Shown here piece after piece: positions 26,058 to 33,463 of a stretch of DNA of 33,484 bases. Every line of letters begins with the position of its first letter. The stretch's first letter is position 1. The translations under genes were made by a program, and so were the position numbers. The notes beneath the pieces are model-generated. The model worked only from the letters and a program-made list of their open reading frames with translations, had not been told where the DNA came from and searched no databases. Source of the DNA: Gammaproteobacteria bacterium (GTDB lineage: Bacteria > Pseudomonadota > Gammaproteobacteria > GRL18); the NCBI GenBank assembly GCA_027009375.1, contig JALVDE010000179.1, positions 1 to 33,484 on the forward strand, read 5' to 3'.

Positions 26058-26819
26058 ATGTTTAAAAATTTTCTTTCCATAAAGTGTACGGCCTATGGCA
26101 AAACCGATACCGGCCGTGCCCGTAATCACAATGAAGACAATATCAGTCTTGATAATAAGCACCATCTGTATATTGTTGCCGATGGTATGGGCGGCCACCA
26201 GGCAGGCGAGGTGGCCAGCAAAATGGCTATTAAAACCATTGAAACCGCCTTACTTAACCATCAGGCCGACCCGAATGCGGATGATGTTGAGTTTCCTGAA
26301 GTACAGACTGTCACCCAGGCTATAGAAGACACCAATATCGGCATTAATCAGTCCAATAAAGACCGTGGACTGCTGGAAGGCAAGGGTATGGGCACCACCG
26401 TGGTAGGCTGCTGGTATTTACCGCGCGCCAAAATGTCCATTATATTCAGTGTCGGCGACAGCCGAGCCTATAGTTTTTACAAAGACAGCCTGAACCAGAT
26501 CACCACCGATCATTCCCTGCTGCAGTTATGGAAAGACAAATGTTTTGAAGGCGATGAACCACCCGCCAATGTACTGACCAAAGCCCTGGGGCCCTATCCT
26601 GATGTTGCCCCTGATATCCTGCTCTACCCGGCTAAAAAAGGCGAACTGATTATCCTCTGCTCAGACGGACTGACCACCATGGTGGATGACAGTGAAATTG
26701 CAGCGACTATTGCCCAGTTTCAGAACAGCCCCGAGAAAATTCCTGAACAGCTGATTATTAAAGCCAACCAGGGCGGCGGGGAAGACAATATTTCAGTTGT
26801 AACAATTGTTTTCGGTTAA
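26058..26819 (+). CDS. PP2C-family protein serine/threonine phosphatase
   Basis: 253-residue bacterial PP2C (Stp/PrpC type) that removes phosphate from Ser/Thr using two metal ions. Motifs in order: TDTGRARNHNEDN with Arg22 and Asp27, VADGMGGHQAGEVAS with Asp42, GKGMGTTVVG, SVGDSRAYSF, LILCSDGLTTMV with Asp203, and GGGEDNISVVTI with Asp243 near the C-terminus. No membrane segment or extra domain is present, so it is cytoplasmic. It converges on the Ser/Thr kinase gene with only 12 bases between stops, suggesting that the two form a reversible phosphorylation pair. The region of both stops is a 16-base tandem duplication. Confidence 0.93.
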   Translation: MFKNFLSIKCTAYGKTDTGRARNHNEDNISLDNKHHLYIVADGMGGHQAGEVASKMAIKTIETALLNHQADPNADDVEFPEVQTVTQAIEDTNIGINQSNKDRGLLEGKGMGTTVVGCWYLPRAKMSIIFSVGDSRAYSFYKDSLNQITTDHSLLQLWKDKCFEGDEPPANVLTKALGPYPDVAPDILLYPAKKGELIILCSDGLTTMVDDSEIAATIAQFQNSPEKIPEQLIIKANQGGGEDNISVVTIVFG

Positions 26820-26836
26820 GATTGTTTTCAGTTAAG
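26805..26836. repeat. 16-base tandem duplication across two convergent stop codons
   Basis: ATTGTTTTCGGTTAAG (26805–26820) is followed directly by ATTGTTTTCAGTTAAG (26821–26836), differing at one base. The first copy supplies the stop of the phosphatase gene (plus) and the second supplies the stop of the kinase gene (minus). It looks like a local slippage or duplication event. Confidence 0.85.
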
Positions 26837-29219
26837 TCTGAAATTTTTTCACCAGGGCTTCCGACGCCAGATACTTCAGTTTCTGCACCAGTTTTAGCTG
26901 GCTGGGTTTAATATTTAATTCTCCGGTTTTAAAACGATCGCCGTAAAACAGGCCAATGGGTTTATTTTTCAGCATTACCGGCAGGACAATAAAGGTTTCT
27001 GCTTCCACTATCTGCTGATACCATGGAGGAATTTTTTTGATAATTTTGGGAGCAGTGGAATCGGCTATAAAAATATCCATGCCTTTTTCCAGGGCCAGGT
27101 GAAACACATCGGGTTTGTATTTCAGAGTAAATCGAAACTGACTCAAAAATGCATTATTAAGACCATGGGCAAATTTACCTTCCATGATTTTCTGCCGGGT
27201 ATTGACCATACACATAACGGAATGATCAAACTCAAAAGCATCATTCATTACGTCCAGACAGAGTTTAAAAATATTAGTCACACTATAATCTATACTTAAC
27301 AGTGCACTGATGTTATTAATACCATTATTAAGAATATCTTCTACCGGTAGTCGAATATCCGGCTGCACTTGATGGTCTGCAGTTTTTTCTGCCGGTTCAA
27401 TCACTATGGTCTTTTCAGTATCTGCCTCAACAACCGATTTTTCGGCTGACTGCGCCTGGGTTTCATTTTCCAGCCCCTGAATAATGGCCGATTTGGACAT
27501 ATTGATATTTAAAATGGAGTTTAAATCCACCAGATCTACCTTGGCCTGGTCTGCCAGTCCGGTCAGATCACGGTCTTTCAAATTCAGTTGCGGAGTATAT
27601 TCACGCCAGAGTTTTACGGCACGCAGACGCCATTGCCCATCATCCTCTTTTTCTATCAACTGTGTCAGTTCATTGGACAGTGAACTGATGGCGTGCATTT
27701 TTTCTTCCTGATTGAGCTGCAGACGCCGACTGTTTGTCTTTGTGTCATACGGCATAATGGTATTAACTATATAGTGGGGCAGTTCCCACTCCCGGGCTAT
27801 GGCATTACCTAGCTGGTTATAACCGATCCCCAGAATTTTTGTGGAGGCCTCCTCATCACTCAGATTTTCATTGTTAACCAGAGCTTCAATTTCCAGATAC
27901 TCTTCATTAAAATAAAAAATAGATAATAATTTACCCAGGTTATGAAAAATTCCGCTTAAAAAAACTTCCTCAAGGTTTTTTAATTGAGATTTTTCAGCCA
28001 GGTTTTTGGCAAATACTCCGCTGTACAGACAGGACACCACCTGATCCCGTAACTGTTTGGCCTGGGACTTATCATGCAGGTGATCAATTAAAATCAGGCT
28101 GACCGCTATGGAGCGGATAGCATCAAAACCCAGCAGCATCACGGCATGAGAAATGGTTTTTACCTCACCACCGCTGCGGCGGTAATAAGCGGAATTAACG
28201 ATTTTAAGAATTTTATTGGTCAGGGAAAAATCTTCTACAATGGCATCGGCCAGTTCATCAAAGCCTTTATCATCCTGGTCGATAATGGTATTAATTTTAA
28301 ACAGTGATTCGGAAAGTGCCGGAAAATCTTTTTTTCGTTTCATGCGTCTGAGCAGAAACTCAATGGTGGCATCCATTTTTTTACTGGAGCCAGTAACTTT
28401 ACTGGTATTACGCTCAATATACTCATCAATGGCTGCATTAAACTCAATGGCACTCTGGTAACGGTTATCCGGTTTTTTATCAATGGCTTTTAATAAGATA
28501 CTTTCAAATGCCGCGTCAATATCATTATTTAATTTTGATGGTGGTGCCAGTTTATCCTTTAATACACTCTGAATGATCTGCCTGATATTAGTACCCTTAT
28601 AGGCGGACTTTCCCGTCAGCATCTCATAAAGAATAATACCCAGTGCATAAGAGTCATTACTGGTGGTAATAAGCTGTTCTTTAATATATTCAGGAGGCAT
28701 ATAACGGGGCGTTCCGAAAAAGCCATTACTTCTGGTTTTCTGTTCGGACATGACGCGGGCAATACCAAAGTCCATGACTTTAGGAACATTCTCATCATTA
28801 ATCAGAATATTGGCTGGCTTCAGATCACAATGGATTATATTTTTTCGGGCGGCTTCACTCATGGCTTCCAGCACCGGTTTTATTAATTCAAGTGCCTGTT
28901 TAACCGTCATGGCACCGGACTTTTTCATCCGCTCTGATAATAACTGGCCACTGACGTATTCAAAAACCAGGTAGGGTTGTTGCTGTTCATCCTCACCGGC
29001 TTCATAAATGGAGACAATATTGGGATGAACCATTTTACTGATGGTTCGGGCTTCTTTTAACAGCAGGTCTTTGGTATTAAAGTCATGTTCGGCATTCAGA
29101 TGTAATGACTTAATCGCCACATTTCTTTGCAAAACCGGATCGATAGCCAGATGCACCACACCCTGTGTACCTCGTCCCAGTTCCCTGATTAAATTAAAAC
29201 GCCCGATTTTTTCTATCAC
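26832..29219 (-). CDS. Ser/Thr protein kinase fused to HDOD and GAF-like domains
   Basis: 795-residue signalling protein. Residues about 7–270 are a Hanks-type kinase: Gly loop GRGTQGVV, Lys37 in VAIKS, Glu56 in KEAR, catalytic HCDLKPANI with Asp132, DFG at 150–152, and GTPRYMPPE activation segment. Residues about 285–490 match an HDOD domain (IVEDFSLTNKILKIVNSAYY, TISHAVMLLGFDAIR). After a Glu-rich linker (about 580–615), the end (about 640–795) looks like a GAF domain (FKLCLDVMNDAFEFDHSVMC..., FIVLPVMLKNKPIGLFYGDR). The start is GTG with AGGA four bases before it. No membrane helix is seen. It faces a PP2C gene. Ligand and targets are unknown; HDOD/GAF suggest small-molecule control. Confidence 0.9.
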   Translation of the reverse strand: MIEKIGRFNLIRELGRGTQGVVHLAIDPVLQRNVAIKSLHLNAEHDFNTKDLLLKEARTISKMVHPNIVSIYEAGEDEQQQPYLVFEYVSGQLLSERMKKSGAMTVKQALELIKPVLEAMSEAARKNIIHCDLKPANILINDENVPKVMDFGIARVMSEQKTRSNGFFGTPRYMPPEYIKEQLITTSNDSYALGIILYEMLTGKSAYKGTNIRQIIQSVLKDKLAPPSKLNNDIDAAFESILLKAIDKKPDNRYQSAIEFNAAIDEYIERNTSKVTGSSKKMDATIEFLLRRMKRKKDFPALSESLFKINTIIDQDDKGFDELADAIVEDFSLTNKILKIVNSAYYRRSGGEVKTISHAVMLLGFDAIRSIAVSLILIDHLHDKSQAKQLRDQVVSCLYSGVFAKNLAEKSQLKNLEEVFLSGIFHNLGKLLSIFYFNEEYLEIEALVNNENLSDEEASTKILGIGYNQLGNAIAREWELPHYIVNTIMPYDTKTNSRRLQLNQEEKMHAISSLSNELTQLIEKEDDGQWRLRAVKLWREYTPQLNLKDRDLTGLADQAKVDLVDLNSILNINMSKSAIIQGLENETQAQSAEKSVVEADTEKTIVIEPAEKTADHQVQPDIRLPVEDILNNGINNISALLSIDYSVTNIFKLCLDVMNDAFEFDHSVMCMVNTRQKIMEGKFAHGLNNAFLSQFRFTLKYKPDVFHLALEKGMDIFIADSTAPKIIKKIPPWYQQIVEAETFIVLPVMLKNKPIGLFYGDRFKTGELNIKPSQLKLVQKLKYLASEALVKKFQT

Positions 29220-30233: not shown

Positions 30234-31493
30234 TTAAGCAGAAGCAGCTTCCGCTTTTCTGTCATACCATTTTTTAACTTCTTCATCCCAGCCATCCATA
30301 CGTACGTATGAACACTGACGCGGCTCACTGACCATATTGGGATCCAGGTCTATACCTAAACCTTCCAGGTAGTTAACCAGACCGATACGTTCAATCATTT
30401 CACCGGTACGTTCGTGTTCCAGAGCGTTTTCTGCAAAGAAATCAATCATTTCACCAGTCAGTTCAACCAGTGCTTCGATTTGCTCCATGGTATCCACTTT
30501 CATAAATGGAACAACCACAGTACCCATCATGTCACCAATCTTCAGAGTACGCTTACCGCCAATAAGAATGGTTACACCAGTGTCATCACCAGGTGCCAGG
30601 GCTTTAGTCATAACATTGATACAATGCATACAACGAACACATTCTTTATTGTTGATGGTCACTGTATTGTCATCGTTCAGTTTAATGGCATTGGAAGGAC
30701 AACGGTCAGTGACATTGTCGATAACGTAGTCACGGCCCTTGGCTTCTACAAACTTTTTAACTTCTTCCTGATCCACTTTCATGTCATCACGCCATGTACC
30801 AATCACGGCCATATCAGCACGTTCAATGGCATTGGTACAGTCATTCGGACAACCGGATACTTTAATCTTCCACTTGTAGGGCAGGGCCGGTCTGTGCAGA
30901 TCATCCTGGAATTCATTAACCAGGTGACGCATTAAACCGTGTTCGTTTGTACATGAATGTTCACAACGGGCCGCACCGACACAGGCCATTGCTGTACGAA
31001 CACAGGGACCGGCACCACCAAGATCCCAGCCGTAAGCGTTGATCTTGTCAAAGAAAGGCTGCATTTCGTCGGTCGTCGAACCAATAAACATAATGTTACC
31101 GGTCTGACCATGGAAAGTCTGCAGGCCTGAACCGTGCTGTTCCCAGTCATCCGCCAGTTTGTTCAGAATATCAGCAGTGTAGAAGTTACCCGCCGGTGGC
31201 TGAACACGTACAGTGTGAAATTCTTTGGACTCAGGGAAATGCTCAGCCACTTCAGAAAAACGAGGAATAATACCGCCACCGTAACCAAATACAGATACGG
31301 TACCGCCTTTCCACCAGCCCATACGGGTTTCATAAGAATGTTCCAGCTGACCCAGCAGGCCATTAACCATGTGGTTAATACGCTCATTCGGATGGTCATC
31401 TCTTAAACGCTTAATGCCGCTGATAAAACTTGGCCATTCACCGTTTTCCAGCTCATCCAGCATGGGAGTTTCGTAAATTTTAACTTTTGACAT
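30234..31493 (-). CDS. dsrA: Dissimilatory sulfite reductase, alpha subunit (DsrA), without dsrB
   Basis: 419-residue cytoplasmic DsrA. With DsrB it forms the siroheme enzyme that interconverts sulfite and sulfur at the sulfide level; in sulfur-oxidising Proteobacteria it works in reverse. Diagnostic features are TPMLDELENGEWPSF at the start, VSVFGYGGG, FHTVRVQPPAGN, the siroheme/[4Fe-4S] ligands C171-x5-C177 and C215-x3-C219 (SGCPNDC), IGTWRDD, and the inserted ferredoxin domain with C265, C285, C288 and C291 (CVRCMHC). The sequence is intact. A strong AAGGAGA lies seven bases before the ATG. No dsrB, dsrEFH, dsrC or dsrMKJOP is adjacent: a chemoreceptor gene lies upstream, and a terminator and rof downstream. 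It could be a displaced or second copy. Confidence 0.94.
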   Translation of the reverse strand: MSKVKIYETPMLDELENGEWPSFISGIKRLRDDHPNERINHMVNGLLGQLEHSYETRMGWWKGGTVSVFGYGGGIIPRFSEVAEHFPESKEFHTVRVQPPAGNFYTADILNKLADDWEQHGSGLQTFHGQTGNIMFIGSTTDEMQPFFDKINAYGWDLGGAGPCVRTAMACVGAARCEHSCTNEHGLMRHLVNEFQDDLHRPALPYKWKIKVSGCPNDCTNAIERADMAVIGTWRDDMKVDQEEVKKFVEAKGRDYVIDNVTDRCPSNAIKLNDDNTVTINNKECVRCMHCINVMTKALAPGDDTGVTILIGGKRTLKIGDMMGTVVVPFMKVDTMEQIEALVELTGEMIDFFAENALEHERTGEMIERIGLVNYLEGLGIDLDPNMVSEPRQCSYVRMDGWDEEVKKWYDRKAEAASA

Positions 31494-31517
31494 AGCAAAG
31501 TCTCCTTCCAGCTATCT

Positions 31518-31555: not shown

Positions 31556-31606
31556 ACAAATAACCTTATATAAAATATGGTTATAAAACAAAGAGTTATT
31601 GTGATC

Positions 31607-31635
31607 ATTTAAATTTATTTTGGTATAAAAGTCAA
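31607..31635 (-). promoter_or_regulatory. Predicted dsrA promoter
   Basis: On the minus strand TTGACT (31635–31630) and TTAAAT (31612–31607) are separated by 17 bases, five and four matches to the sigma-70 hexamers. Transcription would begin near 31600 and give a leader of about 107 bases. The weak -10 fits a promoter that needs an activator, and an FNR-type box lies just upstream. Confidence 0.5.
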
Positions 31636-31642
31636 GATTTTA

Positions 31643-31656
31643 TTGATCTGGATCAA
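31643..31656 (-). promoter_or_regulatory. Perfect FNR/Anr-type box upstream of dsrA
   Basis: TTGATCTGGATCAA matches the FNR/Anr consensus TTGAT-N4-ATCAA in all ten defined positions. It lies in the only space between the chemoreceptor stop (31712) and dsrA, so dsrA is the only downstream gene it can serve. Its centre is about 157 bases before the dsrA ATG and about 49 bases before the predicted transcription start, close to but not exactly the usual activator position of about -41. Confidence 0.7.
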
Positions 31657-31711: not shown

Positions 31712-33463
31712 TCAGACTTTAAACTGGCCGACAATATGTTCCAGTTTTTCTGAGGACTGCTCAAGGTTCTGACCCAGATCAGCGGCCTCATTAGCATTTT
31801 TATTATTTTTATCCGTAATAGTTTTAATGCTTTGCAGGGTATTTTTTATGGTTTCAACCAGTTGCAGCTGCCGCTCTGACTGTTCCGCAATGGTTTTATT
31901 CATACTGAACAGACCATTGACGGCTTCGGTAATATGCTGCAGTGCCGTACCAGCCTCACCAGCCTGTTCTATGGTTTCCTGCACCTGTTGCTTACCAACC
32001 TCCATCTGACTGATGACCGCATGGCTGGCAGACTGCAATTGTTCAATCATCTGCTGGATCTTATCGGTCGATTCCTGGGTCTGGTTGGCCAGTGTCCGTA
32101 CTTCATCGGCCACCACAGCAAAGCCACGTCCCTGCTCACCGGCACGGGCCGCTTCAATAGCGGCGTTTAAAGCCAGCAGATTGGTCTGCTCAGCAATACC
32201 CTTGATCACACCGACAATAGAACTGATATCTGTTACACTTCTGGCTACTTTGGACGTGGCTTCAGAGGCACTGGTAACAGCTCCGGAGACCTGGTTAATT
32301 TTACTAATGGATAAATTAACGACATTACAGCCTTTCTGGGCGGATTCACTGGTGTCTTCAGCGACATCAGCCGCCTGGTTAATATTATCCGTAACATGCC
32401 CCACCGCCTCAACCATTTGATTGATGGCCTGGTCCACAACCGTGATCTGATCTTGCTGCTGAAGCATAAACTGGCTGCCTAATCTGGATATTTCTGCCAT
32501 TTTTTCTGCCGCCTGGGTACTGCTCAGGGATACATGACTGGCATCGGCAATAATATTCTGAAATTTTTCCAGCATACTGTTAAATGCCTGCGCCAGATGA
32601 TTAAGTTCCAGCACATGGCTTGATGCAACCCGTTTGCGGAGATCGGAATTCTGTTCAATATCCTGAACAACTGCAATCATATTTGCGAGGGGTTTATTTA
32701 TACTGCGAGCAAGAGAAAGCATAATTATGATTGAAACAATTAAAATTATGACTAATGGTGGTAAAATATCATGTAAAACATCTTTCCATAACTGTTTAAT
32801 TTCTGAAATATCCTGCACCATCCATAATTCACCACCACCTTTATTCTGTAAGGGTAATACCAGGTATAACAGCCCCTTATCAAAATCAATATAATGATTA
32901 TCCTGCAACTGCTCGGCAGCAGGTTTCTGATACTTATTTTTCAGCTGTGCAGCCCGTTGCTTTTGTTGTTTATAAACATTTATTTCTGCACTAAGTCTGG
33001 CCTTTATTTTTTCCAGCCTGGATCTTTTTTTATGTTCAGGGGGAAGTTTTGCCAGAGTCGTTTCAATTCTACTTAATTTTGACTGGCGGGATGATAAATA
33101 ATCGTCCGCGTACGAGGTACGGTAAAGTTTACCGGTCTGGGCATCGTATATGGCAGTGAATGGCGTATTCTGCAAATCGGTTTTGCCACTCACTGAAAAA
33201 AATTCTATAGCCTTATTGGCCCTGAACAGGTTCAGGGCTTCAGCATCCTGAATATTGGCATAATTGCCTCCGCCCACTGAGCGGGTCATCAGGTTTAAAA
33301 TAGGCTGTGCCGATACTTTGGCCAGTTCAACCCGGTTGGCTATGGCCTTATCAATATCACTATAATAACGCACGACACCCTGTAAAATTCCAACCACCAG
33401 TAGAATAATAATCGGGACTATGGTTACCGCTTTATTAATGGATATGAATTGCTTAAAGGCCAC
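31712..33463 (-). CDS. Methyl-accepting chemotaxis protein
   Basis: 583-residue chemoreceptor. Membrane helices at about 12–30 and 233–252 bracket a periplasmic sensor of about 200 residues. The sensor has an unusual basic, coiled-coil-like middle (about 125–180, rich in Lys/Arg/Gln) between two more globular parts, and I cannot assign it to a known ligand family. A HAMP linker follows (about 253–305), then the signalling domain with the conserved hairpin tip [20 protein letters not shown] and [15 protein letters not shown]. There is no C-terminal CheR-binding pentapeptide. The start is GTG at 33463, with AAGGAG seven bases upstream. It is upstream of dsrA on the same strand, 218 bases apart, but dsrA has its own promoter. 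Confidence 0.95.

Follow-up and report, generated by a model that had tools for sequence, protein, structure and literature searches.

Reverse Dsr is a main route of stored-sulfur oxidation in many bacteria, and to our knowledge little is known about its tuning by oxygen or nitrate. We analysed a 33,484-nt stretch of DNA (hereafter the window) in which an earlier note, made from the sequence alone, had pointed out an FNR-type box in front of a dsrA gene standing apart from dsrB. The locus raises the question of whether one subunit of the enzyme could be under redox control separately from its partner.

A perfect FNR-type box precedes a second copy of dsrA

The box, TTGATCTGGATCAA, matches TTGATNNNNATCAA at ten of ten positions, exactly as the earlier note had claimed, and is the sole perfect match within the window (Table 1). 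It is about 150 bp from the start of the lone dsrA, in an intergenic gap between dsrA and a chemoreceptor gene. Because both flanking genes are on the minus strand, the box can serve only dsrA within the window, and the claim that this gap belongs to dsrA alone holds within those bounds. When two mismatches were allowed, the window contained 34 matches against 26.9 by chance; as this is near chance, we placed weight only on the perfect match. Perfect TTGATNNNNATCAA sites number 20 over the full assembly of 3.2 Mb, and a reversed-pattern control gave 2. Two of the other 19 boxes lie inside an open frame (L178 and L187).

Table 1. Features of the stand-alone dsrA and its promoter region, in window coordinates
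Feature	Position	Strand	Basis or remark
dsrA, second copy, stand-alone; intact, encoding the 419-aa alpha subunit of a dissimilatory-type sulfite reductase	30234..31493	-	TIGR02064
AAGGAG, ribosome-binding site of dsrA	31502..31507	-	window sequence
Conserved leader block TTGTTTTATAACCATATT..GGTTAT, with inverted repeat ATAACC/GGTTAT	31560..31591	-	alignment
TTAAAT, alternative -10, 17 bp from TTGACT; box centre at about -49.5	31607..31612	-	weak: no A at position 2
TAAATT, candidate -10 (TAnnnT), 25 nt past the box; box centre at about -44.5	31612..31617	-	predicted start site
TTGACT, possible -35, 7 nt past the box	31630..31635	-	TTGAC invariant in 14/14 aligned stand-alone promoters
FNR-type box TTGATCTGGATCAA, reading TTGATCCAGATCAA towards dsrA	31643..31656	.	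perfect in 13/14 stand-alone dsrA promoters, 0/14 operon-type
Methyl-accepting chemotaxis protein gene	31712..33463	-	bounds the gap on its upstream side

The product of the stand-alone gene scored 583.8 bits against the NCBIfam model TIGR02064 (cut-off 392.85), and its solved relatives also identify it as DsrA. Ten of the 11 cysteine positions are kept in every orphan row covering them (11–12 rows), and C394 is kept in 10 of 11. There is no dsrB beside the window dsrA, which is thus not a member of a canonical dsrAB operon. Instead, dsrB was located on contig C31, close to its start and after the final 61 codons of another dsrA; genes resembling dsrE to dsrP by order and sequence (names assigned by eye) follow onward from there. 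A further contig, C516, ends within another dsrA, after its first 352 codons. The two pieces appear to be one operon copy, split over two contigs that were left unjoined in this draft of 543 contigs. The earlier note's description of a stand-alone alpha subunit is therefore accurate for the locus, which has no adjoining dsrB, but not for the genome, which has a second dsrA plus dsrB elsewhere. The window dsrA is a duplicate of the operon copy, so a co-transcribed alpha subunit is also present in the cell.

The box is kept at stand-alone loci and absent from operon promoters

We compared the locus across the family of the window genome (f1), which comprises 23 other genomes (G001–G023). dsrA was found in 21 of these, in some as fragments; G002 and G023 showed none, and G002 gave only a weak match to another reductase. 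Seven genomes (G005, G009, G010, G011, G015, G016 and G017) have both dsrA with dsrB and dsrA without dsrB, and in G015 both copies are on a single 4.2 Mb contig. Among the 14 stand-alone loci, 11 have a visible 3′ flank with no dsrB within the stretch fetched. The other three (L154, L157 and L159) are cut inside dsrA and were called stand-alone by a divergent neighbour gene, F2, which encodes a PAS plus sigma-54-activator protein. F2 is adjacent and divergent in 9 of the 14 loci, starting 319–585 bp upstream of dsrA. F2, the F0 genes (in the window, a cupin and a Rho-antiterminator-like gene) and the F3 kinase recur around stand-alone dsrA at the majority of loci, though not at every one. Genera g1 and g4 thus share a single stand-alone locus.

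A perfect box starts 155–247 bp ahead of the start codon in 13 of the 14 stand-alone loci (10 of the 11 with a 3′ flank lacking dsrB and all three truncated ones). The exception is L143 of G015, where the box was lost from the orphan promoter although the genome has Fnr. Perfect boxes were found in 0 of 14 operon-type dsrA promoters within the 277–450 bp examined; the best matches, in two of them, have one mismatch and lie at -358 and -391. The operon-type set consists of nine loci with dsrB downstream, four cut inside dsrA and placed by upstream alignment (L098, L153, L155 and L158), and L134. The counts leave out L156 and L161 (5′ end of dsrA missing), L152 and L162–L165 (dsrA start missing), and L160 (other genus, operon, no perfect box). 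L005, L006, L007, L043 and L064 were treated as repeats of L134, L145, L153, L147 and L155, respectively, and counted once.

All 13 box-bearing promoters agree at each of the ten half-site positions, which is 100% identity between genera, and the 4-base spacer varies. Over the 60 bp upstream of the box, identity between g1 and g4 is 27%. Because the upstream flanks are unrelated between genera and yet the box is identical, selection keeps the box. On the strength of this conservation footprint and the whole-genome control we reject a chance match. Judged from sequence, the box is a real, conserved, locus-specific FNR-type site. The earlier note had named three conditions that would refute it, and neither of the two checked here applied: the genome has an Fnr gene (see below), and the stand-alone dsrA promoters of relatives keep the box. 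Together with the absence of the box from operon dsrA promoters, this gives good support to the suggestion that stand-alone dsrA is controlled separately from dsrB, so that the interpretation in the note is supported in part.

L134 (L005, JALVAL010000566.1) has a dsrA with an operon-type 5′ flank, a stand-alone-type 3′ flank and, by eye, an APS-kinase-like fragment. This locus, counted above as operon-type, is probably a chimera of the two loci, the alternative being true recombination.

Coding sequences of the two copies are homogenised within genomes

In the eight genomes with both copies, third-position identity between an orphan and its own operon copy is 60–92%; between g4 genomes it is about 52–69% for either kind of copy. 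The closest copy to the orphan is its own operon twin in six of the eight, and in G009 and G016 the twin is tied or one point short after rounding. Mismatches between twins are patchy, with none over 360 nt in G005 and one over 360 nt in G017. The tree needs nine orphan/operon label changes, equal to shuffled labels (L008 was dropped from it for length). A single clade of orphan coding sequences was rejected (p-AU 3.6e-122) in a topology test on 24 rows that left out the G019 orphan and G006. We reject the idea that the mixed tree arose solely through recent duplications in separate lineages, since the stand-alone loci share neighbours and promoter. Gene conversion within an old pair would explain both the mixed coding sequences and the unmixed promoters.

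Orphan and operon DsrA are 93–99% identical. Differences at the protein level are few, and the intact orphan has a dN/dS of 0.015–0.05 against its operon twin in all eight genomes (dS is >1 in three, near saturation), a mark of strong purifying selection. The first codon is fixed by class, being M in 12 of 12 orphans and V in 12 of 12 operon copies covering it.

Candidate regulators and other boxes

Crp-type helix-turn-helix domains were detected at eight places in the window genome. The protein on contig C411 is Fnr: it scored 307.1 bits against NF008365 (cut-off 228), aligns to the FNR structures 5cvr and 9qll, and has the cysteine pattern CKECSLHQLC (C-x2-C-x5-C) plus a further cysteine and an ETVSR recognition helix. 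The genome thus contains a true Fnr, for which the earlier note had advised a search. Fnr is also present at ≥ 78% identity in all five other g1 genomes and all 16 g4 genomes. Four further Crp-family proteins (L092, L093, L094 and L095) have E..SR in the recognition helix and no N-terminal cysteine pattern, and another (L091) has FNR-like cysteines. Dnr shares the FNR motif.

Elsewhere in the genome, perfect boxes precede fnr itself (just ahead of its start), a cytochrome cd1 gene of the nirS type (two boxes), ubiU and the genes for a c-type cytochrome, tolC, a proton/sodium pyrophosphatase and rpoN. Another precedes a gene that looks UbiT-like by eye and has no family match.

Downstream of the dsr genes on the dsr contig (L099, 12141–12878) there is a Crp-family regulator without cluster cysteines and with an ETFSR helix, a candidate NO or redox regulator of dsr.

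Promoter architecture

Two readings of the core promoter were considered (Table 1). Among the aligned promoters the box-to-TTGAC spacing is 6–8 nt, and the box-to-TAnnnT spacing is 24–26 nt in 13 of 13 box-bearing promoters; all 14 aligned promoters share the T, A and T of this motif. The predicted box centre is -43.5 to -45.5 if TAnnnT is the -10 element, or -48.5 to -50.5 if the TTGACT/TTAAAT pair is used. At six other boxes of the genome (before ubiU, a cytochrome gene divergent from nirS, nirS, the pyrophosphatase gene, a porin-like gene and rpoN) TAnnnT starts 22–23 nt after the box, as read by eye and with no chance comparison. The spacing at stand-alone dsrA is 1–4 nt longer. A scan of the gap with sigma-70 rules returned no full promoter, and a terminator scan returned no hit. 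The missing sigma-70 match is expected for an activator-dependent promoter and constitutes weak evidence for one. In E. coli, according to sections of PMC3688515, the site lies at -41.5 ± 4 in 19 of the 23 FNR-activated promoters whose start is known, and at -50.5 in ndh and pdhR, which are directly repressed. We favour activation over repression as the probable sign of Fnr-type control.

The leader block is present in all 14 aligned stand-alone promoters, including the box-less one of G015. In a 23-genome pattern search that excluded G015–G022, an exact 18-mer of this block occurred in eight genomes, once each and always at the stand-alone dsrA locus. The ATAACC/GGTTAT repeat has six sites genome-wide versus two for a control. 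An Rfam search of the gap returned a chance-level match to a yeast snoRNA alone, and folding of the leader gave a z of -0.40. Operon dsrA promoters (L098, L133, L135 and others) have conserved blocks of their own, among them CCTCCCAAAGGAAGGGT.. and repeats of CCTTG/CAAGG, which set them apart from the stand-alone promoters.

A proposed extra supply of DsrA and its alternatives

We think it rather probable that an Fnr-type regulator binds the box and controls only stand-alone dsrA, giving a supply of functional DsrA apart from the dsr operon. The stand-alone gene would be an ancient duplicate of the operon-borne dsrA, with gene conversion and strong purifying selection keeping the two coding sequences interchangeable while the promoter stays different. 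At low oxygen, Fnr would hold its [4Fe-4S] cluster, dimerise and bind the box. From a near-class-II position it could recruit RNA polymerase to a core promoter that has no well-spaced -35/-10 pair. The extra DsrA may then join operon-made DsrB during sulfur oxidation with nitrate or little oxygen. The box, its conservation, the separate operon copy, the Fnr gene, purifying selection and the mixing in the tree were observed; the binding, the sign, the partner subunit and the physiological purpose are inferred. Loss of the box from the G015 orphan promoter counts against the proposal in that the control is dispensable there, and so does the spacing to TAnnnT, which exceeds that at the other boxes.

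Under the opposite sign, Fnr would repress stand-alone dsrA when oxygen is missing, in the manner of E. coli ndh, and the extra DsrA would be produced with oxygen. The invariant TTGAC counts against activation here: with TTGACT as -35 and TTAAAT as -10, the box centre falls near -50, where FNR directly represses ndh and pdhR. However, TTAAAT is without the A at position 2 kept by -10 elements, whereas the invariant TAnnnT points to the nearer position. Stand-alone dsrA also has a single box, whereas two upstream sites are reportedly needed at ndh, going by the title of a 1997 paper by Meng and colleagues. On this balance we regard repression as unlikely, though well within reach. Much the same probability attaches to the proposal that a NO-sensing Dnr-like protein, not Fnr, uses the box and ties the extra dsrA to denitrification. 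The Crp-family proteins that have E..SR without N-terminal cysteines, one of them on the dsr contig, and the two boxes ahead of the nirS-type gene would suit it; with the FNR-like cysteines of L091, these proteins leave several candidate regulators. The motif, however, cannot tell Fnr from Dnr, Fnr alone passes a curated model (the NF008365 scan covered Fnr, not the others), and the anaerobic ubiquinone gene ubiU is also preceded by a box.

Far less probable is an origin of the box in the service of F2, with its place before dsrA incidental. F2 is close and divergent in many of the loci, but the window, L131, L132 and L136 have other neighbours and yet a perfect box, and the distances from the box to the downstream TTGAC and TAnnnT are kept. 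We give hardly any credence to the duplicate dsrA or the box being an artefact of assembly or chance. Such errors would be consistent with the fragmented draft, the split operon copy, the chimera-like L134 and the near-chance two-mismatch count, but not with the single G015 contig that holds both copies or with a box that is perfect at nearly all stand-alone loci.

Returning to the preferred explanation of an Fnr-type regulator acting on stand-alone dsrA alone, control of the spare DsrA by oxygen or NO is likely as far as the DNA can indicate. An effect of the box on subunit ratio or assembly, which the earlier note had raised, is a guess. More tentatively, and we rather doubt it in full, the family may split its DsrA supply between an operon gene that starts with a valine codon and has no box, and a lone gene with an ATG start, an Fnr box and a leader element found nowhere else. 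Conversion would equalise the protein, selection would separate the promoters, oxygen or NO would set the DsrA:DsrB ratio, and the leader would act as a second control.

Survey outside the family and comparison with known systems

Class-wide, dsrA was found in 118 of 369 genomes (E 1e-60 or better). Outside the family we examined 75 stretches upstream of dsrA, from 58 bp to at most 450 bp long; 3 of them have a perfect box, and we reject a general FNR box at the dsrA of sulfur oxidisers. Twelve genomes outside the family have two dsrA genes, and the survey covered both places in 10 of them, leaving out G209 and G380, which have contig-edge fragments. In 19 of these 20 places dsrB is adjacent, so that they are second operons; at the remaining one, L306, the retrieved stretch shows no dsrB next to dsrA and no box. 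Two second complete dsrAB operons, L290 (dsrA at 2843) and L292 (dsrA at 2915), carry perfect boxes, at -107 and -164, respectively, and their partner dsr operons have no perfect box (upstream sequence is nearly absent at two of the 20 places). These loci, from two other gammaproteobacterial families, resemble ours in that one of two dsr loci is boxed and the other is not. They differ in that dsrB adjoins dsrA and copy-to-copy identity is lower.

Lone dsrA copies are known already. Thiobacillus denitrificans has two dsrA copies unlinked to dsrB (Beller et al. 2006, as relayed in part of Loy et al. 2009, PMC2702494), and these likewise are full copies outside the dsrAB cluster of a denitrifying sulfur oxidiser. 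There, one species has two extra copies with 78–83% DsrA identity, whereas the family studied here has one extra copy, whose protein is 93–99% identical to that of the operon copy and whose FNR-type promoter is conserved family-wide. Genomes with two sets of dsrAB have also been described (passages of PMC10504309 and PMC11406059). E. coli FNR class II promoters similarly have a single TTGATNNNNATCAA-type box just upstream of the core promoter (PMC3688515, in part), and the predicted box centre at dsrA is -43.5 to -45.5 or, on the other reading, -48.5 to -50.5. E. coli ndh shares the box type and possibly the distance, -50.5 (parts of PMC3688515 and PMC3411108). A literature search, with most subscription journals outside its scope, turned up no paper that describes an FNR site at dsrA or gene conversion of this gene, so neither the conserved promoter nor the homogenisation was found in print.

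A conserved FNR-type promoter that belongs to the spare dsrA and not to the operon would provide a direct and testable link from redox sensing to one subunit, whose synthesis in this sulfur-oxidising family may be subject to two separate controls. The dsrA pair is a clean natural case in which coding sequences are homogenised within genomes and regulation is still split.

Also in the window, a Ser/Thr kinase fused to HDOD is encoded at 26832–29219 (minus strand), convergent with a PP2C phosphatase gene at 26058–26819 (plus strand). This kinase family, F3, is near stand-alone dsrA in 7 of the 14 loci.
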